Shown in pieces: positions 2,539 to 18,951 of a stretch of DNA of 64,000 nt. Source of the DNA: Roseateles koreensis (lineage in GTDB: Bacteria; Pseudomonadota; Gammaproteobacteria; Burkholderiales; Burkholderiaceae_C); contig NZ_JAQQXS010000007.1 of assembly GCF_028595305.1 (NCBI RefSeq), forward strand, positions 124,001-188,000. Reading direction: 5' to 3'. Both the position numbers and the translations under genes were made by a program. Under the pieces are notes generated by a model. That model was not told where the DNA came from. It made no database searches and saw nothing but the letters and a program-made list of their open reading frames with translations. Position 1 is the stretch's first letter; each line of letters begins with the position of its first letter.

Positions 2539-2997
2539 CTATTTTTCAATGCCTGCGAGTTGCTGGCGCACCGAGGCGTTGATGATGCGCAGCTCGGCCA
2601 ACGTGACGTCGATGTGGGCGCGCTTTTCTTCCAGCACCGCAATTTCATTGCTGGTGCGATCCAGTAGAAATTGCAGCTGCTTGGCACGTCCTTCGCCGTG
2701 GTCACCGTAAAGGTCGAGAAACTGCTTGATCTCGGCCAGTGAGCTGCCCAGCCGCTTGGCCCGCAAAATCAGTGTCAGGCGAACCCGGTCGCGCTGCGTG
2801 TAGACACGCGTGCCGTTGACGCGCCGAGGCATCAACAGGCCTTTGTCTTCGTAGAAACGAATGGCGCGAGGCGATAAGTCAAAGTCACGGCACAACTCGG
2901 TGATGCCGAACAGCGCCTCCGAGGGCGCGCCGCCGCTCAGGTCTTCGACATTGCGAGCGGCAGTCTGGTGCTGGCGTTTGGTTTGAACTGCGGACAT
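2539..2997 (-). CDS. MerR-family transcriptional regulator
   Basis: This 152-residue regulator has a MerR winged-helix DNA-binding domain at about residues 30-98 (FGITELCRDFDLSPRAIRFYE, shortened here to its recognition segment SPRAIRFYEDKGLL). A C-terminal coiled-coil dimerisation helix (about 105-150) follows. It lacks the Cys or His pattern of metal-sensing MerR proteins. This fits the acyl-CoA-responsive group that includes LiuR, which controls branched-chain catabolism in proteobacteria. It is transcribed with the SCP2 gene just upstream and points away from the divergent carboxylase operon, which it probably controls. A TTG three bases earlier is possible, but ATG at 2997 is preferred. 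Confidence 0.85.
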   Translation of the reverse strand: MSAVQTKRQHQTAARNVEDLSGGAPSEALFGITELCRDFDLSPRAIRFYEDKGLLMPRRVNGTRVYTQRDRVRLTLILRAKRLGSSLAEIKQFLDLYGDHGEGRAKQLQFLLDRTSNEIAVLEEKRAHIDVTLAELRIINASVRQQLAGIEK

Positions 2998-3035
2998 CAA
3001 TGAACAGGCTCCGGCCTTAGATCGTCAACAGGTGT

Positions 3036-3332
3036 TCAGACCACGCGCTGCAACTTCATGGCCACGCTCATGTCGCCGCTGACTTTGAACTTGCCCATCA
3101 TGAAGCCGTTCATCGGGTTGAGCTCACCCTTGAGCAGGGCGGCCAGGTTTTCTTTGCTGATGGCCACAGTGCAGTCGGCCTCGCGGTCTTCATTGCTGAT
3201 GGTGTTGGGCACGCTCTTGCCGTCGATGACGGCCACCCCGTCGGCGCCGCAGTCAAACTTGAGCACGGCACCCAGGCCGCAGTCTTCGGAGAGCTTGGCG
3301 CGCAGGGCTTCGGTGATGGCGGGCATGTCCAT
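3036..3332 (-). CDS. Small SCP2 sterol-carrier-domain protein
   Basis: This 98-residue protein consists only of an SCP2 fold, which forms a hydrophobic pocket for lipids or acyl-CoAs. The diagnostic C-terminal core ALLKGELNPMNGFMMGKFKVSG is present in pieces: LLKGELNPMNGFM, then GKFKVSGDMSVAMKL. The start ATG at 3332 is preceded by AAGGA about 8 bases away. A longer reading from 3446 has no site and an unrelated N-terminus. It lies 38 bases upstream of the MerR gene on the same strand and faces the acyl-CoA operon. A role in binding the hydrophobic substrate or its CoA ester is plausible but inferred. Confidence 0.8.
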   Translation of the reverse strand: MDMPAITEALRAKLSEDCGLGAVLKFDCGADGVAVIDGKSVPNTISNEDREADCTVAISKENLAALLKGELNPMNGFMMGKFKVSGDMSVAMKLQRVV

Positions 3333-3488
3333 GGTGGGTCCTTGATTAAAGAGTGAGGCGTTGAAGGGGCAGGGAAGCATTGACTCAGTAACGGCTAATT
3401 CAAGCGCATTGCATTCACTCAGCTTCGCGTTGGCTGAATCCGCCATGTCGCCAGCTTACCCAATCGGCATCACGCTGAGTTCATGGTA

Positions 3489-3524
3489 TTCACCAATATG
3501 AAATGGGGGTGACGTTAACGGAAG
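3489..3524 (+). promoter_or_regulatory. Candidate MerR-controlled promoter of the acyl-CoA operon
   Basis: In the 223-base divergent region, TTCACC (3489-3494) and GTTAAC (3514-3519) are separated by 19 bases, the long spacer typical of MerR-activated promoters. The downstream part contains TGACGTTAACG (3510-3520), whose ACGTTAACG core resembles the operators I recall for LiuR-type regulators. The operon start is at 3556, with CTGGAGACAG just before it as ribosome binding site. Assignment rests on pattern and position only. Confidence 0.35.
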
Positions 3525-3555: not shown

Positions 3556-4452
3556 ATGAGTGATGTACAAGAACCGGCGCAAGATGACAAGCCGGGTTAT
3601 CGCAGTGTTTTTCGACCGGGTCTGTTTGCCGGGCAACTGATCTGGGTGACGGGCGGGGGCTCGGGCATTGGGCGTTGCGTGGCGCATGAGCTGGCGGCGC
3701 TGGGGGCGCAGGTGCTGATCTCTGGCCGCAAGGCTGAAAAACTGCAGGCCGTGGCGGCCGAGATCGCGCAGGACGGGGGGCGCTGCGATTGGCGTGCCTT
3801 CGACATCCGCGATGAAGACGCAGTGAAAGCCCAGGTGGCCGAGGTGGTGGCCCGTTATGGCCCCATTCATGGTCTGGTCAACAACGCCGGCGGGCAGTTC
3901 CCTGCGCCCGCTATGGCCATCAGCAAACGTGGCTTCGAGGCGGTGGTGGCCAACAACCTCACCGGCGGCTTTTTGATGATGCGCGAAGTCTTCACGCAGA
4001 GCATGCAGGCCACGGGCGGCGCCGTTGTGAACATGACGGCGGACTTTCGCAACGGCATGCCGGGCATGGCGCACAGTGGCGCGGCCCGCGCCGGCATGAG
4101 CAACCTCACCATGAGCACCAGCTATGAATGGGCCCACGCCGGTGTGCGAGTCAATGCCGTTGCACCCGGTTGGGTTGCCTCCAGCGGTATGGACAGTTAT
4201 GGCGACGCCATCAAGGATGCCATCCGCAACTTGAAGCACCACGTTCCCTTGCGCCGTTTGGCGACCGAGGCTGAAATCAGCGCGGCCATCGTCTTCTTGC
4301 TTTCGCCCGCCGCGGCCTTCATCACCGGCGTGACCTTGCAGATTGACGGCGGGGCCTCGCTGGGCAACCCCATGTTTCCGTCCATCGACCATGCCGGCAC
4401 GCAGCGCTTTGAAGGTTTTCATCGCGCGGTTGATCCCAAGGTGCTGGCATGA
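3556..4452 (+). CDS. SDR-family oxidoreductase (AtuB-position), atypical active site
   Basis: This 298-residue Rossmann-fold protein has the nucleotide-binding TGGGSGIGR motif (about residues 31-39) and NNAGGQF (about 114). At the usual Tyr-x-x-x-Lys catalytic site it reads AHSGAARAGM, so both Tyr and Lys are missing. Trans-2-enoyl-CoA and dienoyl-CoA reductases of the PECR/DECR branch show a similar HSGAARAG sequence, so it probably acts on enoyl-CoA thioesters rather than as a plain alcohol dehydrogenase. It opens the operon, and its stop overlaps the carboxyltransferase ATG (ATGA at 4449). AtuB in the terpenoid operon is also an SDR at this place. The exact substrate is unknown. Confidence 0.82.
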   Translation: MSDVQEPAQDDKPGYRSVFRPGLFAGQLIWVTGGGSGIGRCVAHELAALGAQVLISGRKAEKLQAVAAEIAQDGGRCDWRAFDIRDEDAVKAQVAEVVARYGPIHGLVNNAGGQFPAPAMAISKRGFEAVVANNLTGGFLMMREVFTQSMQATGGAVVNMTADFRNGMPGMAHSGAARAGMSNLTMSTSYEWAHAGVRVNAVAPGWVASSGMDSYGDAIKDAIRNLKHHVPLRRLATEAEISAAIVFLLSPAAAFITGVTLQIDGGASLGNPMFPSIDHAGTQRFEGFHRAVDPKVLA

Positions 4453-6059
4453 GCCGGCTGGTGTCCCGGCTCAATTCTCGCTCGGCCGCTTTTCAGGCGA
4501 ATGTCGAGCGCATGACGCAGCGCTTGAACGAGGTGCGTGCACTGGAGGCACAGGTGGTGGCCGAGTCCGCCAGCAAGCGCGCGAAGTTCGAGGCCAAGGG
4601 CCAGATCCTGCCGCGTGAGCGGGTGGCGCGCTTGTTGGACCGCAATGCCGGCTTTTTGGAGTTGTCCAGCCTGGCCGGCCTGGGCATGCACGATGACGAC
4701 GGCAAGAAGAGTGTGCTGGGCGGCGGTTCGGTCGTTGGCATCGGCACCGTGGCGGGCAAGCGGGTGATGATCTCCGCCAGCGACAGCGCCATTAAAGGCG
4801 GCACCGTCGCGCCCATGGGGTTGAAGAAGGCCCTGCGTGCGCAGGAAATCGCCCGTGAGATGAAGCTGCCGCTGATCTATCTGGTGGAAAGCGGTGGCGC
4901 CAACCTGATGTACCAGAGCGAGATGTTTGTGGAAGGCGGGCGCAGCTTCGCCAACCAGGCGCGGCTCTCGGCCCAGGGCCTGCCGCAGATTGCGGTGGTG
5001 CATGGGTCTTCCACCGCCGGTGGCGCCTATCTGCCGGGCTTGTCGGACTATGTGGTGCTGGTCAAAGACCGCTCCAGCATCTATCTGGCTGGCCCGCCGC
5101 TGGTCAAGGCCGCTATTGGCGAAGACGCCAGCGACGAAGAGTTGGGTGGCGCCGATTTGCATGCCCGCGTGACCGGCCTGGGCGAGTATCTGGCCGATGA
5201 CGATGCCCACGCGATTGCCTTGGCCCGCGAGCTGATGGGCCAATTGCCTTGGGACCTCGCACCGCCACCGCCTGCATTTGAGCCACCCCTGTTCGACACC
5301 GAAGAATTGATGGGTGTGGTGCCGCAAGATGAGCGTGAGCCCTATGACGTGCGCGAGCTGATTGCGCGCCTCGTTGATGGCTCCGACTTTCTTGAATTCA
5401 AGGCCGTGTACGCGCCAGACACCGTCTGCGGCCACGCCCGCATCGAGGGCCATGCGGTGGGCCTGATCGGCAACAACGGGCCGATCCAACCGCAGGGCTC
5501 CACCAAGGCGGCGCAATTCATTCAGCTGTGCGAGCAGAGCGGCACGCCCCTGGTGTTTTTGCAGAACACCACCGGCTATATGGTGGGCAAGGCGGCGGAG
5601 CAGGGCGGCGCCATCAAGCATGGCGCCAAGATGATTCAGGCGGTGGCCAATGCCAGCGTGCCCAAGTTCACACTCGTGCTGGGTGGCTCGTTCGGCGCGG
5701 GCAACTACGGCATGTGCGGCCGTGGGTTTGATCCACGCTTCATCTTTTCCTGGCCCACCGCCCGCACCGCCGTGATGGGCGGCGCACAAGCTGCCAAGGT
5801 GATGGACATCCTCAACCGAAGCAAGCTCGAGCGCCTGGGCGCCCCGGTCAACGACGAAGCCTTGGTCGCCATGAGTGACCAGTTACGTCAGCGCATTGAC
5901 CGCGAATCGCACGTGCTGTTCGGCACCGCCCGCCTATGGGATGACGGCATCATCGACCCCCGCGACTCCCGCCGCGTACTTGGCCTGGCCCTGAGCCTGG
6001 CTGCAGAGGCCGCCCGGCGCGCCTTGCGCAGCAATACGTTTGGCGTGGCGCGTTTGTAG
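4449..6059 (+). CDS. Biotin-dependent acyl-CoA carboxylase, carboxyltransferase (beta) subunit; geranyl-CoA type suspected
   Basis: This 536-residue subunit moves CO2 from carboxybiotin to an acyl-CoA. Both halves of the carboxyltransferase fold are present. Acyl-CoA site segments include SGGANLMYQ (149-157) and HGSSTAGGAYLPG (185-197). Biotin-site segments include NTTGYMVG (373-380), IKHGAKM (389-395) and GGSFGAGNYGMCGRG (412-426). The stretch RGFDPRFIFSWP followed by RTAVMGGAQAAKV resembles geranyl-CoA carboxylase (AtuC) more than methylcrotonyl-CoA carboxylase, where I recall RAYxPRF and ISVMGGEQA. Together with gene order this suggests a longer branched enoyl-CoA substrate. Leucine-pathway methylcrotonyl-CoA remains the main alternative. 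It overlaps the SDR gene by 4 bases. Confidence 0.85.
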   Translation: MSRLVSRLNSRSAAFQANVERMTQRLNEVRALEAQVVAESASKRAKFEAKGQILPRERVARLLDRNAGFLELSSLAGLGMHDDDGKKSVLGGGSVVGIGTVAGKRVMISASDSAIKGGTVAPMGLKKALRAQEIAREMKLPLIYLVESGGANLMYQSEMFVEGGRSFANQARLSAQGLPQIAVVHGSSTAGGAYLPGLSDYVVLVKDRSSIYLAGPPLVKAAIGEDASDEELGGADLHARVTGLGEYLADDDAHAIALARELMGQLPWDLAPPPPAFEPPLFDTEELMGVVPQDEREPYDVRELIARLVDGSDFLEFKAVYAPDTVCGHARIEGHAVGLIGNNGPIQPQGSTKAAQFIQLCEQSGTPLVFLQNTTGYMVGKAAEQGGAIKHGAKMIQAVANASVPKFTLVLGGSFGAGNYGMCGRGFDPRFIFSWPTARTAVMGGAQAAKVMDILNRSKLERLGAPVNDEALVAMSDQLRQRIDRESHVLFGTARLWDDGIIDPRDSRRVLGLALSLAAEAARRALRSNTFGVARL

Positions 6060-6099
6060 GCCTCGCACTTGTCGACAACAACACCGGAGACTATTCATC

Positions 6100-7254
6100 A
6101 TGATCCTCACAGCAGAACATCGCGCGCTCTACGACACGGTTGCCAAGTTTGTTGAAAAAGAGCTCAACCCTCATGTGCCCGCCTGGGAAAAGGCGGAGCA
6201 GTTTCCGGCGCATGAGGTGTTCAAAAAGTTGGGTAACTTGGGTTTGATGGGGCTTAAATACCCTGAAGAATTCGGTGGTGCCGGCTTGGACTTCAGCTAC
6301 TCGATGGTGATGGCGGAAGCGCTGGGGGAGTGCTACTGCGCGGGCGTGCCGATGGCCATTGGCGTGCAGACCGATATGTGCACACCAGCCCTGGCGCGCT
6401 TTGGCAGCGATGAGTTGCGGCGCGACTACTTGGCGCCGTCGATTGCGGGCGATTTGGTGGGCTGCATCGGCGTGAGCGAGCCGGGTGGCGGCTCTGACGT
6501 GGCTGCCGTCAAGACCCGTGCCGTTCGTGAGGGCGACGACTACGTGATCAACGGCACCAAGATGTGGATCACCAACGGCATGCAGGCCGACTGGTGCTGC
6601 CTGCTGGCCAACACCAGTGACGGCCCGGCGCACAAGAACAAGAGCTTGATCGTCGTGCCCATGGACGCGCCGGGCATCAGCCGCCAGAAGATCCACAAGA
6701 TCGGCATGGACGCCTCGGACACCGCCCAGCTGTTTTTCGACAATGTGCGTGTGCCCCGCCGCAACCTGATCGGGCAGGAGGGCATGGGCTTCATGTTCCA
6801 GATGATGCAGTTCCAGGAAGAACGCCTTTGGGGCGCGGCTTCTTCGCTGCGCAATATGGACCGCCTGATCGACCTGACCATCGACTACACGCGCCAGCGC
6901 CAGGCGTTTGGCAAGTCGATTCTTGACAACCAAGTGGTGCACTTCCGCCTGGCCGAGTTGCGCACGGAGGTGGAGGCTTTGCGCGCTTTGACCTACTCAG
7001 CGGTGGAGCAATACGTGGCGGGCAAAGAGGTGCTGAAGCTGGCCTCCATGGCCAAGCTCAAGTGCGGGCGCCTGATCCGCGAGGTGGCGGATTCTTGCCT
7101 GCAATATTGGGGCGGCATGGGCTTTACTTGGGACAACCCGATCAGCCAAGCCTTCCGCGACGGCCGCCTGGTGTCCATTGGCGGCGGCGCGGACGAGGTG
7201 ATGCTGGGCATCATCTGCAAGCTGGAGGGCACCTTGCCCAAGGGGGCCCATTGA
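6100..7254 (+). CDS. Acyl-CoA dehydrogenase (AtuD/isovaleryl-CoA dehydrogenase-like)
   Basis: This 384-residue FAD enzyme introduces an alpha-beta double bond into an acyl-CoA and passes electrons to ETF. FAD and substrate segments include [13 protein letters not shown] (about 122-134) and [13 protein letters not shown] (about 156). The usual C-terminal catalytic Glu of IYEGT is missing (the sequence is SIGGGADEV). A Glu lies in FQEERLWGA (about residue 243), where isovaleryl- and long-chain dehydrogenases keep their base, so it belongs to that mechanistic group. ATG 6100 has CCGGAGA upstream. In the pathway it should supply the enoyl-CoA that the carboxylase uses. Citronellyl-CoA or a similar branched acyl-CoA is the candidate substrate. 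Confidence 0.88.
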
Positions 7255-8066
7255 ACACGCCGGGAAGTCCCGACCTGTTGGTGAGCCGCCGTGGTCCGGT
7301 GTTGCAACTCACCCTGAATCGGTCGGCCACACGCAATGCCCTGACGCAAGCCATGGTGGCTGCGCTGCGGGCGCAACTGGCGGCCCTGCAGTCTGCGCCG
7401 GGCGAGGTGCGTGTGCTGGTGCTGCGGGGGGCGGGCGGAAACTTTTGTGCAGGCGCCGATTTGGCGGACATGGCGCAAGTGCGCCAGCGCGTGGTCACCG
7501 AGGGCGCGGCGGCATTGCAAGCCGCCAACGCTGCCTTCGGTCACTTATGCGCTGAGGTGGCGAGTTTGGACATTGCCACCGTGGCCGTGCTGGAGGGCAC
7601 AGTCATGGGCGGTGGCCTGGGGCTAGCCTGCGTGGTGGATGTGGCGTTGGCCGCCGACACCGTGGACTTTCGCTTGCCTGAAACGGCGCTGGGGCTGTTG
7701 CCGGCGCAGATTGCGCCTTTCCTGATTGAGCGATTGGGGACCTCTCAGGCCCGCCGTCTGGCGGTGACGGGGGCGCGGGTGAAGGGGGCGCAGGCACTGG
7801 CAATGGGCCTGGTGCACGAGCTTCATCCTGCCGCACAACTGGACGAAGCGCTGACGCGCGTCTTGAATGACACCCTGCAATGCGCACCGCAGGCTTTGGC
7901 CGTTACGAAGCGCTTGATGCGCCAGGTTCAGCGGCAGGGCGTCACGCCCCAGTTGCTGGACGAAGCGGCCGGGCTGTTCGCCCAGGCCGCCCTGGGTGAA
8001 GAAGGTTTGGAAGGCACTGCTGCCTTCATGGCGCGGCGCCCGCCGCAATGGGGGGTGACGGTATGA
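7251..8066 (+). CDS. Enoyl-CoA hydratase/isomerase family protein (AtuE/LiuC position)
   Basis: This is a 271-residue crotonase-fold enzyme. The two oxyanion-hole segments are clear: GAGGNFCAGADLADM (about residue 64) and GTVMGGGLGLACVVD (about 112). PETALGLLPAQIAPF (about 143) carries the usual active-site Glu region and matches methylglutaconyl-CoA hydratase relatives. It would hydrate the carboxylated enoyl-CoA made by the carboxylase. Translation starts at TTG 7251, inside a TTGA overlap with the dehydrogenase stop and 5 bases after AGGGGG. No ATG near the family N-terminus exists in this frame. Confidence 0.85.
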   Translation: MNTPGSPDLLVSRRGPVLQLTLNRSATRNALTQAMVAALRAQLAALQSAPGEVRVLVLRGAGGNFCAGADLADMAQVRQRVVTEGAAALQAANAAFGHLCAEVASLDIATVAVLEGTVMGGGLGLACVVDVALAADTVDFRLPETALGLLPAQIAPFLIERLGTSQARRLAVTGARVKGAQALAMGLVHELHPAAQLDEALTRVLNDTLQCAPQALAVTKRLMRQVQRQGVTPQLLDEAAGLFAQAALGEEGLEGTAAFMARRPPQWGVTV

Positions 8067-10042
8067 GCGCCGGGAAGTTGAGCAAAGTTCTGGTGGCCAA
8101 TCGCGGCGAGATTGCCTGCCGCATCATGCGCAGCGCGAAGGCCATGGGCTTGCGTACCGTGGCGGTCTACAGCGAGGTGGAGGCTGATGCCCCGCACGTG
8201 GCCTTGGCTGACGAGGCGCTGTGCATCGGTGCGGCACCCGCCAGCGCCTCTTACCTGAACATCGAGGCGCTGCTGCAGGCGGCCCGCCAGAGCGGCGCCG
8301 ACGCCATTCATCCGGGCTACGGCTTCCTGTCTGAGCGGGCCGACTTTGCCGCCGCCTGTGTGGCGGCCGGCCTGGTATTCATCGGGCCCAGCGCGGCCAG
8401 TATCGAGGCCATGGGCAATAAGGCGGCCGCCAAACGCCGCATGCTGGAGGCCGGCGTGCCTTGCGTGCCCGGCTATCTCGGTGCTGTGCAGGACGAGGCG
8501 CATCTGATCAGCGAGGCGCTGACGCTGGGCTTTCCCCTGCTGGTCAAGGCGGTGGCGGGTGGTGGCGGGCGCGGTATGCGCACGGTGCATCGTGCCGAGG
8601 AGTTGCCCGGTGCCTTGAGCAGTGCCCGGCGCGAAGCCGAAAGCGCCTTTGGTGATGGCACGCTGATGTTGGAGCGCCTGATCGAAGCTGGGCGCCATAT
8701 CGAGATCCAGGTGTTTGCCGACCACCACGGTTACACGATTCATCTCGGCGAGCGCGACTGCAGCACACAGCGCCGCCGCCAGAAAGTGATCGAGGAAGCG
8801 CCCTCGCCGGTGCTGAGCGAGGCGCAACGCCAGGCCATGGGGGTCGACGCGGTGGCTGCCGCTCGGGCAGTCGGTTATGTGGGCGCCGGGACGGTGGAGT
8901 TCATGCTGGACGCCCAAGGCCGGCACTATTTTTTGGAGATGAACACCCGCCTGCAGGTGGAGCATCCAGTCACCGAAATGATCACGGGGCTGGACCTGGT
9001 GGAATGGCAATTGCGCGTGGCCGCCGGGGAGCCGCTGCCGCTGCGCCAGGAGCAGGTGCAGTTCAAGGGCCATGCCATCGAGGTTCGTCTGTACGCCGAG
9101 GACCCCTACGACGGCTTTGCGCCGCAGACCGGTACCGTCAGTTGGTGGCGCCCCGCCTGCGCGGCCGCAGGCCTGCGCGTGGACAGCGGCATCTTCGAGG
9201 GCGGCCGGGTGCAGCCTTTCTACGACCCCATGCAGGCCAAGCTGATTGCCCACGGGTGCGACCGGGCGGATGCCATCCGGCAACTGGCCAGCGCGCTGGC
9301 GGACAGCCCATTGCTGGGCTTGCCCAATAACGGCCGATTTCTGCGGGATCTGTTGTTGCATCCCGATTTTGAAGCGGCGCGGCTCAACACCGCCTCGCTG
9401 GACGATTGGGTGGGTCAGCAGGCGGTCATTCTTCAGCGCCCGGCACCGCAGCAGCAAGACTGGCTGGTGGCCGCCGGAGCCTTGATTCTGGCGGACGGGC
9501 CCGTGGGGCCGCGACCCGCAGGTGTTGCGAGTTATGCGCTGACGCTGCAGTGCCGAGATGTGCGCCAACACTTTCGCGTGAGTGCACTGGGGCGGCACGT
9601 GACGCTGGAGCTGGGCGGCGTGACCCATCAGTTCGAGCAGGTTGGCGAGGACGCGTTGGGCCGCCTCAGACTGCGCCTGAACGGCCACCTGCATTGCTGC
9701 ATCGTGGCGAGGCAAGCGGGGGGCATCGAGCTCAGCCGGGACGGGGCCGCCTGGCTGTTCACCGAGCCCTCGCCTTACCCTGAACCGGCCGACAGCCGTG
9801 ACCCGGCGCGTGCCCTGGCGCCTGTGGCCGGGGTGGTGGCGCAAATCCTGGTGCGCGTGGGTGACACCGTGCAAGAGGGGCAGCCGCTGCTCAGCGTCGA
9901 GGCCATGAAGATGGAGATGTGGCTCACGGCGGGCTGCACGGGCCGCGTCAAGGCCATTCACGCCGCAAGCAAAGACTCAGTGGCGGCGGGCGCCGTGCTG
10001 GTTGAACTGGATGCATCCAATATGGAGACTGAAACACCATGA
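8063..10042 (+). CDS. Acyl-CoA carboxylase alpha subunit: biotin carboxylase plus biotin carrier
   Basis: This 659-residue protein uses ATP and bicarbonate to carboxylate its own biotin. Its domains in order are the biotin carboxylase N domain (KVLVANRGEIACRI, residues 7-20), the ATP-grasp domain with the Gly-rich KAVAGGGGRGM loop (about 164) and MNTRLQVEHPVTE (about 293), the biotin carboxylase C domain, a linker/BT region, and a C-terminal biotinyl domain with the EAMKME motif and the biotinylated Lys at 616. Size and layout match MCC/GCC alpha chains (LiuD/AtuF). It starts at ATG 8063 in an ATGA overlap with the hydratase gene and partners the carboxyltransferase encoded at 4449. Confidence 0.9.
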   Translation: MSAGKLSKVLVANRGEIACRIMRSAKAMGLRTVAVYSEVEADAPHVALADEALCIGAAPASASYLNIEALLQAARQSGADAIHPGYGFLSERADFAAACVAAGLVFIGPSAASIEAMGNKAAAKRRMLEAGVPCVPGYLGAVQDEAHLISEALTLGFPLLVKAVAGGGGRGMRTVHRAEELPGALSSARREAESAFGDGTLMLERLIEAGRHIEIQVFADHHGYTIHLGERDCSTQRRRQKVIEEAPSPVLSEAQRQAMGVDAVAAARAVGYVGAGTVEFMLDAQGRHYFLEMNTRLQVEHPVTEMITGLDLVEWQLRVAAGEPLPLRQEQVQFKGHAIEVRLYAEDPYDGFAPQTGTVSWWRPACAAAGLRVDSGIFEGGRVQPFYDPMQAKLIAHGCDRADAIRQLASALADSPLLGLPNNGRFLRDLLLHPDFEAARLNTASLDDWVGQQAVILQRPAPQQQDWLVAAGALILADGPVGPRPAGVASYALTLQCRDVRQHFRVSALGRHVTLELGGVTHQFEQVGEDALGRLRLRLNGHLHCCIVARQAGGIELSRDGAAWLFTEPSPYPEPADSRDPARALAPVAGVVAQILVRVGDTVQEGQPLLSVEAMKMEMWLTAGCTGRVKAIHAASKDSVAAGAVLVELDASNMETETP

Positions 10043-10932
10043 TTGCCCCCACACACAAAGACAAAGCGATCTTGACCTGCGCCTTGACGGGCGTCCTGAC
10101 CAATCCCAAGCAACATCCGGTGCCGGTCACACCCGAGCAGATGGCGGCACAGGCGCGCGAGGCCTTCAACGCCGGTGCGTCGGTCATGCATGTGCATTTG
10201 CGCATGCAGCAAGAAGGGTTGGGCCATCTGCCGAGCTGGGACCCGGATGTTGCCGAGGCCATCATCGGCGCCATTCGCGCCGCCTGCCCGGGTGTCATCA
10301 TCAACCTCACCACCGGTGTGATCGGGCCAGACATCGAGGGCCCGCTCGCCTGCATCCGCCGTGTGCGCCCGGAGGTGGCGGCCTGCAACGCGGGCAGCCT
10401 GAACTACCTCAAGCTCAAGGACGACGGCAGCTGGGCCTGGCCGCCCATGGTTTTTGACAACCCGGTTGCCAAAGTGCAGGCGTTTTTGGCGGTGATGGAG
10501 GAGTGCGGGGTGCACCCCGAATTCGAGTGCTTTGATGTGGGCATCGTCCGCTCGGTGGGCATGTACGTGAAGAGCGGTCTGTTCAAGCCCAGCATGGGGC
10601 GCCCTGAGTACAACCTGGTGATGGGCGTGGCCTCGGGCATGCCTGTGGATGCGGAGTTATTGGCCTTGCTGCCGCGCTATATGGTCGACGGCGCCTTGTG
10701 GCAGAGCACCTTGATCGGGCGCGCCGAGATCTGGCCCGTCCACCAGCGAACGGCGGAACTGGGCGGTATGTTGCGCACCGGGCTGGAAGACAGCTTCTAC
10801 CTGCCCGACGGTTCACGCGCCAGCGGCAACGGCGTGATGATCGAAGCTTTGGCGCAGTGCGCCACCCGTGCCGGCCGCAGCGTTGCCAGCCCGGCTGAAG
10901 CACGCCTCATGATGGGCCTGGCCACCGCCTGA
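10039..10932 (+). CDS. BKACE family (DUF849) beta-keto acid cleavage enzyme
   Basis: This 297-residue TIM-barrel metalloenzyme belongs to the family founded by 3-keto-5-aminohexanoate cleavage enzyme. Members condense a beta-keto acid with acetyl-CoA, giving acetoacetate and a new acyl-CoA. The metal-binding HVHLR (His51, His53) and the distal RTGLEDS (Arg246, Glu250, Asp251) are present. The residue before the first metal region, Glu in the founder (GAEVT), is Leu here (TGVLTNP), so it belongs to a different subgroup. It overlaps the alpha-subunit gene by ATGA and ends the operon, where liu operons carry HMG-CoA lyase. Its substrate is unknown. The position suggests cleavage of a branched 3-oxo or 3-hydroxyglutaryl-type product. 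Confidence 0.85.
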   Translation: MIAPTHKDKAILTCALTGVLTNPKQHPVPVTPEQMAAQAREAFNAGASVMHVHLRMQQEGLGHLPSWDPDVAEAIIGAIRAACPGVIINLTTGVIGPDIEGPLACIRRVRPEVAACNAGSLNYLKLKDDGSWAWPPMVFDNPVAKVQAFLAVMEECGVHPEFECFDVGIVRSVGMYVKSGLFKPSMGRPEYNLVMGVASGMPVDAELLALLPRYMVDGALWQSTLIGRAEIWPVHQRTAELGGMLRTGLEDSFYLPDGSRASGNGVMIEALAQCATRAGRSVASPAEARLMMGLATA

Positions 10933-10951: not shown

Positions 10952-11923
10952 TTACGAATCGCCGGAGGTTTCAGAGTCGCCCGGGGCTTCTGACTCGCTC
11001 GCCCGAAACTTTTTCTTGCGCAGCGCAGCCTTGGCCTTGCGCTCGGCCTCCGCCTTGTCAGCGGCGGCTTGCCAGCTCAGAAATTCGTCCGGCGTTTCCA
11101 GGGTGATGCGCCCCAGCACGTTCTGGCGGAATTCGTAGATCAGCACTTCGGCCGCCTTTTGCAGGTTCACCCGCCCGCCGCTCAGCATGGCGCCGCGCTT
11201 GCGGCCGATGGCGGCCAGCAATTCTTCGTCGTTCAGGCTGGGGATGCTGTCGGGGTCCAGCTTGTAGCGGGCGATCAGCAGGGCGGGGTAGTGGACGCGC
11301 AGATAAGCCAGCAGTTCGACGGCAACCTCGGCTTCGTCAAAGGCATTGCGGCCGATGGCGCCGCTGGCGGCGAGGTTGTAGCCGCTTTCTTCCACGCTGA
11401 TGCGCGGCCACAGCATACCGGGGGTGTCGAAGAGGTAGAAATCGTTTTCAAGGACGATTTTCTGCTCCAGCTTGGTGATGCCGGGTTCGTCACCCGTCTT
11501 GGCGGTGCGCTTGGAGGCCAGCGTGTTGATCAGCGTGGATTTGCCTACATTGGGAATGCCGCAAATCAGCACCCGCACCGGCTTGACCATGCCGCCGCGC
11601 AAGGGGGCCAGTTCACGGCAGGCCTTGATGAGGGCCTGTGCAGGGGCTTTGACGCTGGCGTCCAGACCGATGGCGCGGGTTTCGGGCTGGGCGTTGTAGT
11701 GGTCCAACCAGAGGGCGGTACGGGCGGGGTCGGCAATGTCTTGCTTGTTGAGCAGCTTGAGGGTGGGCTTGCCCAAGGTCAGCTGGGCCAGCAGCGGGTT
11801 TGCGCTGGAGCCCGGGCAGCGGGCGTCCAGCATCTCAATCACGACGTCGAGCCCCGCTTTCATGCGATCGTTGATCGCATTGCGGGTCGAGTTCATATGC
11901 CCCGGGAACCAGTGAATCGCCAT
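10952..11923 (-). CDS. ylqF: YlqF/RbgA-type ribosome biogenesis GTPase
   Basis: This 323-residue circularly permuted GTPase has its motifs in the order G4 (NKQD, about 58-61), G1 (GIPNVGKST, about 123-131) and G3 (DTPG, about 167-170). This order defines the YlqF/YawG family, which helps mature the large ribosomal subunit. The start MAIHWFPGHM is a family hallmark and matches ATG 11923. The C-terminus after about residue 285 is a charged Lys/Glu-rich helix followed by an acidic Ser/Glu tail. It converges with the BKACE operon, with only 19 bases between stops and no evident terminator. Confidence 0.9.
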   Translation of the reverse strand: MAIHWFPGHMNSTRNAINDRMKAGLDVVIEMLDARCPGSSANPLLAQLTLGKPTLKLLNKQDIADPARTALWLDHYNAQPETRAIGLDASVKAPAQALIKACRELAPLRGGMVKPVRVLICGIPNVGKSTLINTLASKRTAKTGDEPGITKLEQKIVLENDFYLFDTPGMLWPRISVEESGYNLAASGAIGRNAFDEAEVAVELLAYLRVHYPALLIARYKLDPDSIPSLNDEELLAAIGRKRGAMLSGGRVNLQKAAEVLIYEFRQNVLGRITLETPDEFLSWQAAADKAEAERKAKAALRKKKFRASESEAPGDSETSGDS

Positions 11924-13499: not shown

Positions 13500-15065
13500 T
13501 TAGCGCATGAAGGTCTTCAAGGCGTCCAACATCACGCTGGGGTCGGTGGTGGCGTTGTAGACCTCGGGTGATTTCTTGTTCAGGCGCAGCAGCGTGTAAA
13601 CCGCTGCCTGGGCCGCCCGAACCGAGTACTCCACCGTGAAGACCACGTCTTTGGGCTGCTCGCAGAACTGGCTCACGAAGGCAAAGTTGGTGGAGCCCGC
13701 CGGCACCACGGCTGGGCGGTCATGCGCTTCGCGCAGCAGGAATTCGGCGGTGATGTAGGGCAGCTTCACGGGGACGCAGCGGCAGGTTTTCAGCACTTTG
13801 TCCTCGTGCTCGCGCAGCCGCAGGTGCCCCAGCAATTCTTGGAGAATCTCGGCGCCCGAGCATTCACCCATGGGTTTGGCGACGAAGTTGCCCGGCCGGT
13901 TCGGGAACAGGCCATAGCCCCAGAATACCTGGATGTCCGCCGGTTGGTTGATGAAGTGGGGTTGCTTGGCGATCACGAAGCTCATCAGCCAGTTCGAGTC
14001 CGCCAAGGTGACCAAGGCGCCGGTGCCGGCGGAGTTGCCGCTGAAATCCTCGATCAATTGCAGGAACAGCGGGTCGCGGCAGGTGACGGTGAAGGACTCC
14101 CAAAACGACTCGTCCACATGGTCGCAGAAGGTGCCTGGCGTGCCGAAGTCGCGGCGGTTGCGGGCGATTTTTTCCCACAGCGCCCATTCGGGTGTTTTTT
14201 CGGTGTTCAGCGGCGGTGCCTGCTCGTGGCTGCCGATGCTGGCGGCCGCGGTCATCGACCCATTGGTCATGAACACCAAATCTCCAGGGTTGACCGCCAG
14301 GGCCTTGGCCTGGCCTTGCTCGCGCAGCAGCAGCCGTTCAGCCGTCACTTCTCCGGGCGTGGGTTTGAATTGAATGTCTTCCACCACGCAGGCTTGGCGA
14401 AAGTTCACGCCTTGCGCACGCAGCCAAGTTTCGATCGGCAGAATCACCGAGTCGTATTGGTTGTAGGGCGATCGGTCCACGCCGGCCAATGTGTTGATGC
14501 GCGGAAACTCATGCATGAAGCGATGCAGATAACGCTTGAACTCCACGGCGCTATGCCAAGGCTGAAAGGCGAACATCGTGCACCACATCAACCAGAAGTT
14601 GGTCTCGAAAAAGTGGGGTTGAAAGCATTCGTCGATGCGTTTGCGGCCCAGCGCGACTTCGCTGCTCCCCACGATCTGCGCCATGTCCAGGCGGTCGTGG
14701 GCGTCGAAGCCCATGCGGTCGGTGTTCGCCACGATCTGGCCGCCCCGCACTAGGCGGGCCTGGGCATGGGTCTTGTTTTCAGCGTTGAAGGACTCGAACT
14801 CTTGCAGCACGGTTTTGCTTGGGTCCGTCAGGGACGGGATGAAACCCAGCAACTCGTAGGTGCAGAGGTAAGAGAAGTTGAACATGCGCCCGCCGCGAAT
14901 GACGTAGTCTTGCGCCGGCGAGCCGCTGCCGTCCATGCTGCCGCCATTGATACCGGCCGCTTCCAGAATATGGATCTCGCTGCCCTTGAATCCGCCGTCG
15001 CGGATCAGGTGTGCGGCGCTGGCGAGCGAGCCGATGCCGCCCCCGATCAAATAGGCTTGAGTCAT
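13500..15065 (-). CDS. ohyA: Oleate hydratase
   Basis: This FAD-dependent enzyme adds water to the cis-9 double bond of unsaturated fatty acids, giving 10-hydroxy acids. It is 521 residues long. The N-terminal dinucleotide site is GGGIGSLASAAHLIRD (about 7-22). The family segments GGSMDGSG and RGGRMFNFSYLCTYEL (about 57-72) carry catalytic and FAD contacts, and YNQYDSVILP and FSGNSAGTGALVTLADSNW follow. The start MTQAYLIGGG at 15065 is preferred over a 20-residue longer reading. It is monocistronic by appearance. Such enzymes detoxify free unsaturated fatty acids or feed hydroxy-fatty-acid metabolism; which applies here is not shown. Confidence 0.92.
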   Translation of the reverse strand: MTQAYLIGGGIGSLASAAHLIRDGGFKGSEIHILEAAGINGGSMDGSGSPAQDYVIRGGRMFNFSYLCTYELLGFIPSLTDPSKTVLQEFESFNAENKTHAQARLVRGGQIVANTDRMGFDAHDRLDMAQIVGSSEVALGRKRIDECFQPHFFETNFWLMWCTMFAFQPWHSAVEFKRYLHRFMHEFPRINTLAGVDRSPYNQYDSVILPIETWLRAQGVNFRQACVVEDIQFKPTPGEVTAERLLLREQGQAKALAVNPGDLVFMTNGSMTAAASIGSHEQAPPLNTEKTPEWALWEKIARNRRDFGTPGTFCDHVDESFWESFTVTCRDPLFLQLIEDFSGNSAGTGALVTLADSNWLMSFVIAKQPHFINQPADIQVFWGYGLFPNRPGNFVAKPMGECSGAEILQELLGHLRLREHEDKVLKTCRCVPVKLPYITAEFLLREAHDRPAVVPAGSTNFAFVSQFCEQPKDVVFTVEYSVRAAQAAVYTLLRLNKKSPEVYNATTDPSVMLDALKTFMR

Positions 15066-15195
15066 GATGAAGTCGCTGAAATCGCGCGAGTGAAGTTGCA
15101 ATAAGCCATGCTCGACGGCCTGCAAACTTCAGTCAATCGCCAGCATTGACTTTGAGCAAGGTTGACGGAAATTCAATCGCAGCCCCGCGCCACCA

Positions 15196-17628: not shown

Positions 17629-18951
17629 TCAGTTCACTTGTTGGCGTTTCAGTTGCAGGACGTCCATAGGGCGGACGTCGCTGTCGCCTTGTGCCTGATT
17701 GCCCCAGGCACTGCGCAGATAACTTGTTAGCGCTGCTTGCTGGTCGTCGCTCAGAACCCCCGAAAACGGCGGCATGCCGAAGGGGCGTGGGTTGCCCGTC
17801 GTGGCCGGCGCAAAACCGCCGCGCTGGATGATGCGCAGCAGATTTGCGGGCGACGCCATAGTGACCGTGCGGCTGCCTGCCAGCGCCGGATATGCGCCTG
17901 GTACGCCCTCGCCGTTCACGCCATGGCAGTGGGCGCAATGCTCTGCGTACAGCGGGCGGCCGAGCGAGCGCAAGGCGGGCTCCGCTCTTCGTCCCGGGGT
18001 TTGGGGTGGGGGCGACTTGATCTGCGGAAGGCTTTGCAGATAGGTGGCCAGGGCAACCAGATCGGCGTCGCTCAGGTGCTGCGTGCTTCCTAGAATGACC
18101 TCGCTCATGGGCCCCAGGGCGCTGCCCTGCGGCCCGGTGCCGGTTTTCAGCCAATGGCGCAGGGCGGGCTGCGGCCAGTCGCGCACGCTGGCTTCGCTGG
18201 GGTCTTGCAAGGAGGGCGCGTACCAACCCAGCTCGGGCATGAATCCGCCGGAGAAGTCTTGCGGCCCCGGTGTTGCGCCCAGGCTGTTGCGGGGGGCGTG
18301 GCAGGCGTTGCAATGGCCCAGGCCTTGCGCCAGGTAGGCGCCGCGGTTCCATTCAGCGCTGCGTTGCGCGTCGTTCTGGTACACCCCAGGGCGAAAGTAG
18401 AGCGCCCGCCACACGGCCAGCGCAGGCTGAGTCCCGAAGGGGAAGTGCATCTCCTGTGCGCGATTGGCTTGCGACACCGCGGTCAAGCTGCGCAGATAGG
18501 CCCACAGGGCGTCGCTGTCCGCCCGGCTGACCAGGCTGTAGTTGCTGTAGGGGAAGGCGGGGTTCAGAAGCCGGCCATCGCGCCCGCGCCCGTTGTGCAA
18601 TGCGGTCCAGAAGTCATCTGCGCTCCAGGCGCCCAGGCCGTGCTGGATGTCGGGGGTCAGGTTGGGTGAAAAGACACTGCCAAAGGGCGTGGCAATGGCC
18701 CGCCCGCCCGCATAGGGGCGCCCGCCCACGGCCGTGTGGCACCCCATGCAATTGCCGGCCCGGGCCAGGTAGCTGCCACGGGCGATTTGCTCCGGCTTGG
18801 CCAGGGTGGCGGTGGTTGTTGTCGTTGTTGTTGCTGCCATAGCGGTTGCCGTGGGCGGCGTTTCATCGAGGTGGTTCAGCCTGACGAGGGCCGCCACGCA
18901 AGCGCCTGCCAGGAGCAGCCCGGCAAGCGCCCATTGGCGCGCCCGGTTCAT
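17629..18951 (-). CDS. Trihaem c-type cytochrome (membrane-anchored dehydrogenase-subunit type)
   Basis: This 440-residue exported cytochrome has three haem sites, CMGCH (about 68), CNACH (about 215) and CAHCH (about 342). Each heads a class I cytochrome c domain with its own Met ligand candidates. Length and three-domain layout match the cytochrome subunits that accept electrons from membrane alcohol, aldehyde or gluconate dehydrogenases, but no flavin or quinoprotein subunit is nearby. The N-terminus is one hydrophobic helix (WALAGLLLAGACVAALV) that may stay as an anchor, followed by a Thr run. It overlaps the cytochrome c4 gene by ATGA at 18948-18951, so the two are co-translated and probably form one electron-transfer chain. 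Confidence 0.85.
   Translation of the reverse strand: MNRARQWALAGLLLAGACVAALVRLNHLDETPPTATAMAATTTTTTTATLAKPEQIARGSYLARAGNCMGCHTAVGGRPYAGGRAIATPFGSVFSPNLTPDIQHGLGAWSADDFWTALHNGRGRDGRLLNPAFPYSNYSLVSRADSDALWAYLRSLTAVSQANRAQEMHFPFGTQPALAVWRALYFRPGVYQNDAQRSAEWNRGAYLAQGLGHCNACHAPRNSLGATPGPQDFSGGFMPELGWYAPSLQDPSEASVRDWPQPALRHWLKTGTGPQGSALGPMSEVILGSTQHLSDADLVALATYLQSLPQIKSPPPQTPGRRAEPALRSLGRPLYAEHCAHCHGVNGEGVPGAYPALAGSRTVTMASPANLLRIIQRGGFAPATTGNPRPFGMPPFSGVLSDDQQAALTSYLRSAWGNQAQGDSDVRPMDVLQLKRQQVN

Follow-up and report, generated by a model that had tools for sequence, protein, structure and literature searches.

The closest described relatives of the locus examined here are the atu operon of Pseudomonas, the liu operon of leucine and isovalerate breakdown, and the BKACE (DUF849) enzymes typified by Kce. 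Roles have been assigned to the atuABCDEFGH genes (PMC4847356, PMC9973270; here and below, cited papers are represented by excerpts), whereas the terpenoid cleavage step is given to AtuA in one source (PMC4847356) and to LiuE in another (PMC4097962), with acetate and a 3-oxoacyl-CoA as the products in both. BKACEs react acetyl-CoA with a free beta-keto acid, which yields acetoacetate and a CoA ester with two carbons fewer (PMC12871164). Here we describe an operon of Roseateles koreensis, at positions 3556-10932 of a 64,000-nucleotide stretch of contig NZ_JAQQXS010000007.1 (the window), as a real, conserved and recurrent variant of the atu pathway, in which an atu-like operon with a carboxylase of the geranyl-CoA carboxylase (GCC) type carries a BKACE in AtuA's stead. 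The operon comprises six genes:

3556-4452, + strand: short-chain dehydrogenase/reductase (SDR), AtuB-like (Pfam family; best PDB match 6lln)
4449-6059, + strand: GCC-type carboxyltransferase beta, AtuC-like (Pfam Carboxyl_trans; PDB 5ikl, motif, tree)
6100-7254, + strand: acyl-CoA dehydrogenase in an AtuD-like position (Pfam Acyl-CoA_dh; QEERL motif)
7251-8066, + strand: enoyl-CoA hydratase, AtuE/LiuC-like, TTG start (Pfam ECH_1)
8063-10042 (alternative start 8048), + strand: biotin carboxylase alpha with biotinyl domain, AtuF-like (Pfam; AMKM biotin site)
10039-10932, + strand: BKACE, DUF849 (Pfam BKACE, 5.8e-81)

The list of open reading frames and the Pfam searches bear out the six frames, their families and their order as given in the initial annotation, together with the four-base overlaps (4449-4452, 7251-7254, 8063-8066 and 10039-10042) that join all genes except at 6059/6100, where a 40-base spacer between the beta and dehydrogenase genes (6060-6099) is the sole gap. 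The overlap at the hydratase reads TTGA, and the start of this gene would therefore be TTG. A convergent gene ends downstream at 10952, which makes the BKACE gene the last of the operon. Promoter and terminator scans gave no more signals than shuffled sequence.

The likeness to atuB-F that had been noticed from the gene order holds, given the frames, their Pfam families and the gene roles described for atu (PMC4847356, PMC9973270): the two operons share the order B-C-D-E-F (SDR, beta, dehydrogenase, hydratase, alpha), a GCC-type beta subunit and an AtuB-like SDR. They differ in that the Roseateles genome has no AtuA match, and its operon ends in BKACE, has SCP2 and MerR genes in front and contains no counterpart of atuG or atuH. 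The liu operon offers the same classes of carboxylase, dehydrogenase and hydratase, but the beta subunit described here lacks the Phe and the insertion of 3-methylcrotonyl-CoA carboxylase (MCC) and lies outside the MCC clade, and the genome has a liu cluster of its own. With Kce and its relatives the BKACE shares the family, the His-His-Glu metal ligands and the catalytic Arg and Asp; unlike them, it is linked to a carboxylase and carries Leu and Phe in place of Glu14 and Tyr145 of CcaKce. In the openly licensed literature, searched by titles and the starts of abstracts, no combination of a GCC or other acyl-CoA carboxylase with BKACE, DUF849 or Kce was found, terpene utilization included, which agrees with the earlier statement that no described pathway of this composition was known to its author. 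Nothing pertinent emerged either on phytol or 3-methyl-branched acids in connection with an acyl-CoA carboxylase.

The carboxylase is of the GCC type

The best solved relative of the beta subunit is the GCC beta of P. aeruginosa (5ikl, 710 bits), compared with 540 bits for the MCC beta 3u9r. The two types are told apart by Phe191 of MCC, where GCC has Gly, and by a three-residue insertion that precedes this Phe in MCC (Jurado et al. 2015, PMC4673880). At this site the window beta reads EMFVEG---GRSF, with the Gly present and the insertion absent, as in 140 of the 145 aligned betas, itself included; the remaining five, which have both Phe and the insertion, comprise PaMCC, the second beta of the window's own genome and betas from three other loci. 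In a quick tree of 100 rows, the window clade (37 rows, support 100) joins PaGCC and three AtuA-linked betas with a support of 97 in the Shimodaira–Hasegawa-like approximate likelihood ratio test (SH-aLRT), and the MCC betas stand separately (support 100). The tree holds betas of at least 500 residues, a filter that dropped locus L126, and about a quarter of the best-80 BKACE loci defined below. The motif was read on the fetched loci, with G284, G298, G354, G361, G368 and G370 falling outside this check and L108 being too short. By motif and phylogeny, the beta subunit is thus of the GCC and not of the MCC type. The suggestion of a terpenoid-type rather than a leucine-type carboxylase, and the comparison with MCC and GCC betas proposed along with it, accordingly come out in favor of GCC.

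The window's genome contains three beta matches at E 1e-10 or better: the beta itself, an MCC beta that is 52% identical (C33:47391-48986) and a more remote one with 32% identity. The MCC beta belongs to a leucine cluster on a single contig (C33:47391-60928), together with a hydratase and the sole HMG-CoA (3-hydroxy-3-methylglutaryl-CoA) lyase of the genome (C33:60020-60928, 303 residues, 452 bits versus a cut-off of 246). An MCC operon for leucine is ruled out for the window locus by the beta signature, the tree and this separate liu cluster. The initial annotation had itself set out the contrary case of an MCC-like beta combined with a normal HMG-CoA lyase elsewhere; such a lyase does exist elsewhere in the genome, but the beta lies outside the MCC clade.

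For the alpha subunit, which has its AMKM biotin site at residue 614, the best PDB match is the MCC alpha 3u9s (565 bits), and no GCC alpha occurs among the matches listed. Biotin genes lie within the leucine/MCC region of the same genome, between the hydratase and HMG-CoA lyase genes (L005 14448-17493; G000:C33:38000-57000); bioD and bioB score above their cut-offs and bioF slightly below (415 versus 426 bits).

The beta tree also contains a second, distinct GCC-like clade of Burkholderiales with 52 rows (L126 is not in the tree), which includes L104, L109, L113, L118, L121-L127, L144, L147-L149, L160-L166, L172 and L176-L179. Its clusters often consist of SDR, beta, dehydrogenase and alpha genes in this order and then another dehydrogenase (about 35% identical); AtuA lies nearby or in another place, and several clusters have a TetR gene in front.

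Companion enzymes

The best PDB match of the SDR is 6lln, a putative dehydrogenase of citronellol catabolism (380 bits), followed by 1yxm, human PECR, the peroxisomal trans-2-enoyl-CoA reductase (202 bits). Aligned with 1yxm, the SDR has HSGAARAG in place of the YxxxK motif, as does the human enzyme. Among 64 SDRs at least 50% identical, H[ST]GAAR is present in all 64 (HSGAARAG in 59, HTGAARAG in four, HSGAARMG in one). Because this PECR-type motif replaces YxxxK, we read the SDR as a candidate enoyl-CoA reductase, an assignment to be treated as a lead. PECR acts in phytol breakdown. A similar lead to the type of the dehydrogenase is the Glu of its QEERL motif, which we take to mark the catalytic site used by isovaleryl- and long-chain dehydrogenases. 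The second-best NCBIfam model of the hydratase is gamma-carboxygeranoyl-CoA hydratase, at 168 bits, under its cut-off of 426.

The cluster is conserved in Burkholderiales

When the BKACE protein was scanned against one genome per species, 329 relatives were found, of which the best 80 were used as loci; some genomes are represented by two entries in L008-L087 and L130-L141, and hence also within the counts of 97, 145 and 69 sequences or regions given in this work. Named strains with the locus are Burkholderiales, Rhodoferax, Comamonas, Acidovorax, Simplicispira and Paucibacter among them. Mapping of the window proteins placed alpha directly upstream of BKACE in 76 of the 77 Burkholderiales loci that have at least 700 bases upstream, an adjacency that rules out chance or recent local gene assembly. 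In the 62 loci with at least 6.5 kb upstream, beta is present in 61 and the dehydrogenase and hydratase in 56 each, counting L078, whose copies of the latter two were missed by the distance limits (raw counts 55 each); a divergent SCP2 gene accompanies 60 and a divergent MerR gene 56, and the SDR stands at the operon front in only 18. As the gene order recurs across genomes, the arrangement is not due to chance.

Departures from this pattern retain parts of it. Five clusters (L057, L073, L082, L084 and L086) keep beta, alpha and BKACE without the dehydrogenase and hydratase; L078 is without alpha, L034 without beta and dehydrogenase and L013 without hydratase. The operon is patchy, and the same-genus genome G262 has neither BKACE nor a GCC-type beta. 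Recurrent neighbors in relatives, scanned by one representative each, are an AMP-binding acyl-CoA synthetase, a thiolase, a fused hydratase/3-hydroxyacyl-CoA dehydrogenase and transport parts of the branched-chain type, which would fit the breakdown of a branched acid without naming the acid. L086 contains a second, partial BKACE match (18428-18808, 73% identity), which lies about 8 kb further downstream, and one in-match TGA is listed for 2 of 23 BKACE genes of the family sample described below (G354:C2:525260-526120 and G385:C34:43229-44101).

BKACE and AtuA have largely complementary distributions

The BKACE at 10039-10932 is the only BKACE match in its genome, and a profile search of the whole genome for the AtuA family (PF07287) gave no match. 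The same search was positive in 71 of 250 genomes of the order (the order sample) and in 79 of 150 genomes of the window's family (the family sample), and can therefore see AtuA. GCC-type genomes were read from beta matches at E 1e-130 or better among the matches listed, a threshold that would pass over weaker betas; genomes whose only beta match was below 72% identity counted as MCC unless the locus was fetched, and G271 was left unclassified. On this basis 63 of the 150 family genomes have a GCC-type beta. BKACE occurs in 23 of the 150, within 12 kb of a GCC-type beta in 22 of them; G361, the one that departs from this, is divided across contig ends.

The AtuA family is matched in all 40 GCC-type genomes that lack a BKACE match, weakly so in G353 (1.8e-12), and in 22 of the 40 the match lies within 50 kb of beta. 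In G350 and G353 window-type clusters are cut by contig ends (L143 and L128, respectively), and their apparent lack of BKACE may reflect incomplete assembly; without these two genomes the count is 38 of 38. AtuA matches are found in 5 of the 23 BKACE genomes, none of them within 50 kb of beta. Long-frame AtuA (560 codons or more) is present in 32 of the 40 BKACE-less genomes versus none of these five. Family genomes without a GCC-type beta have AtuA in 34 of 87 cases. Fisher's test over the GCC-type genomes, with kinship ignored, gives 1.3e-11. In the order sample, AtuA is present with 19 of 19 fetched GCC-like candidates, which were chosen by score and lie in genomes not searched for BKACE genome-wide.

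Such a contrast also occurs within one genus. In genus g135, G264 has BKACE without AtuA and G390 AtuA without BKACE, and their betas are tree neighbors (support 85). G356, within the window clade, has beta and alpha, no BKACE and a long-frame AtuA. BKACE furthermore occurs in the second, distant carboxylase clade (L124, L125 and L127, with L126 outside the tree); the four divergent BKACEs of second-clade clusters are 64-68% identical and group apart from the window type in the BKACE tree. Among eight fetched loci with AtuA apart from the carboxylase or on another contig, five (L182, L184, L186, L187 and L188) have a hydratase gene beside AtuA, as expected for an enzyme that would act after hydration.

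The metal and catalytic residues of BKACE are intact

The window BKACE meets Pfam PF05853 (272 bits versus a cut-off of 24.8) and stays below the cut-offs of all four NCBIfam models that matched it. Its metal and catalytic residues H51, H53, E250, D251 and R246 are invariant in 97 of 97 BKACE sequences. We take them to be the equivalents of His46, His48, Glu230, Asp231 and Arg226 of CcaKce, as numbered in the Kce work. The position of CcaKce Glu14, which presumably binds the substrate amino group, is Leu in all 97, in line with a putatively apolar substrate. Numbering follows CcaKce through Tyr145 (PMC12871164).

Two proposed ways to finish the removal of a beta-methyl branch

The earlier proposal that BKACE replaces the lyase step holds in that BKACE stands where AtuA stands in relatives, but finds no support in casting BKACE as the lyase itself: BKACEs need a free beta-keto acid and acetyl-CoA, and the product of the hydratase would be a tertiary-alcohol CoA ester. 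It would thus probably be AtuA's substitute in the pathway while acting downstream of a lyase, not as one. Here, "it" is the BKACE. We infer the substrate class, the roles of the SDR and dehydrogenase, the identity of the lyase, the side of the cut and the BKACE reaction as follows. The operon would remove the beta-methyl branch of isoprenoid-type acyl-CoAs. The SDR would reduce an (E)-2-enoyl-CoA, the dehydrogenase would form the isomer accepted by the carboxylase, and the GCC-type carboxylase would put CO2 on the beta-methyl group, with hydration giving a putative 3-hydroxy-3-alkylglutaryl-CoA. HMG-CoA lyase from the separate leucine cluster would cut this intermediate into acetyl-CoA and a free 3-oxo acid (R-CO-CH2-COO-), which BKACE would convert with acetyl-CoA into acetoacetate and R-CO-SCoA, two carbons shorter and ready for beta-oxidation. 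We regard this route of HMG-CoA lyase followed by BKACE, in an operon for isoprenoid-type branch removal, as an evenly balanced proposition. It would account for the tie of BKACE to the carboxylase and for the dispensability of AtuA, since the HMG-CoA-lyase cut would leave a free 3-oxo acid for BKACE to re-esterify.

HMG-CoA lyase yields acetyl-CoA and free acetoacetate. Where relatives have no BKACE, the alternative cut would fall to AtuA, with acetate set free and the thioester retained. The sole PDB match of AtuA, a weak one (E 0.0005), is named AtuA-family protein/citramalate lyase subunit A. Citramalate lyase produces acetate and pyruvate. This cut would have the same shape as an acetate-releasing cut by AtuA; nothing joining citramalate lyase with AtuA was found in the openly licensed literature.

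Several points weigh against the proposed route or against the complementarity on which it draws. The tree contains only four supported independent pairs (median p 0.125); on average, AtuA runs opposite to BKACE in 3.6 of them, and in none do the two run together. The paired test excluded L116 on account of a BKACE cluster in the same genome. That genome, G344, combines the BKACE cluster with the second GCC-like cluster L116 and yet has no AtuA. Among 49 further genomes with window-type BKACE, eight have AtuA, four of them with frames of more than 600 residues; the AtuA gene coordinates of the L067 genome equal those in G298, so that one genome is probably in both samples. Complementarity is therefore a strong tendency and not absolute. 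An HMG-CoA lyase orthologue is present in 22 of the 23 BKACE genomes of the family, but with matches in 145 of the 150 family genomes its presence says little, and in G311, a BKACE genome of 97% completeness, there is only a paralogue with 41% identity. The route contradicts the printed products of LiuE. Finally, the site of CcaKce Tyr145 is Phe (Phe165) in 97 of 97 BKACEs, a warning because BsfD has the same change and is linked to divergent chemistry (PMC12871164). Phe is also found here in PDB 3no5, which the NCBIfam model of 3-oxoadipate:acetyl-CoA acetyltransferase scores above its cut-off (489 bits against 350), and Tyr145 may thus not be BKACE-defining.

The near-ubiquity of HMG-CoA lyase would fit an accessory BKACE that recovers free beta-keto acids lost from beta-oxidation or from other catabolic routes, with a true lyase, LiuE or another, already giving a usable product. 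Known BKACEs serve unrelated pathways, such as deoxyribonate catabolism (PMC6365646), and have been described as promiscuous (PMC4922564). Nevertheless, (i) the link of alpha and BKACE in 76 of 77 loci, (ii) the retention of BKACE in clusters that have no dehydrogenase and hydratase and (iii) its presence in a second carboxylase clade speak for a core role, and we consider the accessory role doubtful. One-for-one replacement of AtuA, with BKACE itself cleaving 3-hydroxy-3-alkylglutaryl-CoA, appears unlikely. It would suit the near-exclusion of AtuA and BKACE beside GCC-type carboxylases, the proposal of AtuA as the lyase (PMC4847356) and G311, where the operon is present and no HMG-CoA lyase orthologue was found, but the substrate would be a tertiary-alcohol CoA ester, the described chemistry requires a beta-keto acid and acetyl-CoA (PMC12871164), and the residues for it are kept in 97 of 97 BKACEs. 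BsfD-like acetylation of a beta-keto acid with release of a diketone, prompted by the Tyr-to-Phe change common to all 97 sequences and BsfD (PMC12871164), is highly improbable, as Phe is shared by 3no5 and a diketone would presumably be a dead end for a catabolic operon.

Genome G311 has a single beta match, of the GCC type, with no MCC and no LiuE orthologue found. Locus L198 of this genome (G311:C24:118001-137000) contains the 41% identical HMGL-like gene at about 9384-10238, beside a gene that by eye resembles a family III CoA-transferase.

Predicted operator and neighboring genes

The region in front of the operon contains the following features:

2539-3000, - strand: MerR-family regulator, divergent (Pfam MerR_1; conserved position)
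3036-3446, - strand: SCP2, sterol-carrier-like lipid-binding protein, divergent (Pfam SCP2, 1.1e-15)
3508-3524, no strand: predicted palindromic regulator operator, core TGACGTTAACG at 3510-3520; consensus of relatives TTGACGTTAACGTCAA

In many relatives the SCP2 match does not begin before residue 38-39, and the gene may therefore truly start near 3332. In relatives, the region between SCP2 and the operon carries TTGACGTTAACGTCAA or close forms and is near-invariant at this site. Of the 69 intergenic regions, 66 have the pattern CGTTAACG, whereas among random stretches drawn from these sources 0.6% do; it is missing from L022 and L141, which are one genome, and from L055, which has CGTATACG. 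The exact core occurs once in the window, and the pattern was not found in the genome's own leucine (liu) region. Of 67 other loci scanned, a single one carries it; this set is made up of second-clade clusters and those with AtuA, three loci of the MCC type, the BKACE-bearing L124-L127 and, without BKACE, L128 and L129. Most simply, the predicted operator would be that of the adjacent MerR gene.

Further from the operon, an MCRA family protein (Pfam, 672 bits), a family that we take to be oleate hydratase-like, is encoded about 2.5 kb downstream (13500-15125, - strand). On the other side lie an FGGY gluconokinase gene (971-2518, + strand; 729 bits versus an NCBIfam cut-off of 649) and, adjoining it, a transporter-like frame (4-978) with a weak NCBIfam match only.

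Implications

Combining these observations, we tentatively propose that beta-methyl removal has two interchangeable finishes: AtuA, which would send out acetate and keep the thioester, or an HMG-CoA-lyase cut followed by BKACE, which would restore the CoA ester without ATP and yield acetoacetate. The second route, with SCP2 and an SDR resembling enoyl-CoA reductases, may serve long isoprenoids such as derivatives of phytol or farnesol. The reading of the SDR would also cast doubt on AtuB-type SDRs as alcohol dehydrogenases. The literature assigns the cleavage step to both AtuA and LiuE, and the clade with BKACE in AtuA's stead bears on that question and makes it directly testable, because a cut of the HMG-CoA-lyase type would leave a free beta-keto acid that needs CoA. 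If the proposed route is true, a subfamily of BKACEs gains a predicted pathway.

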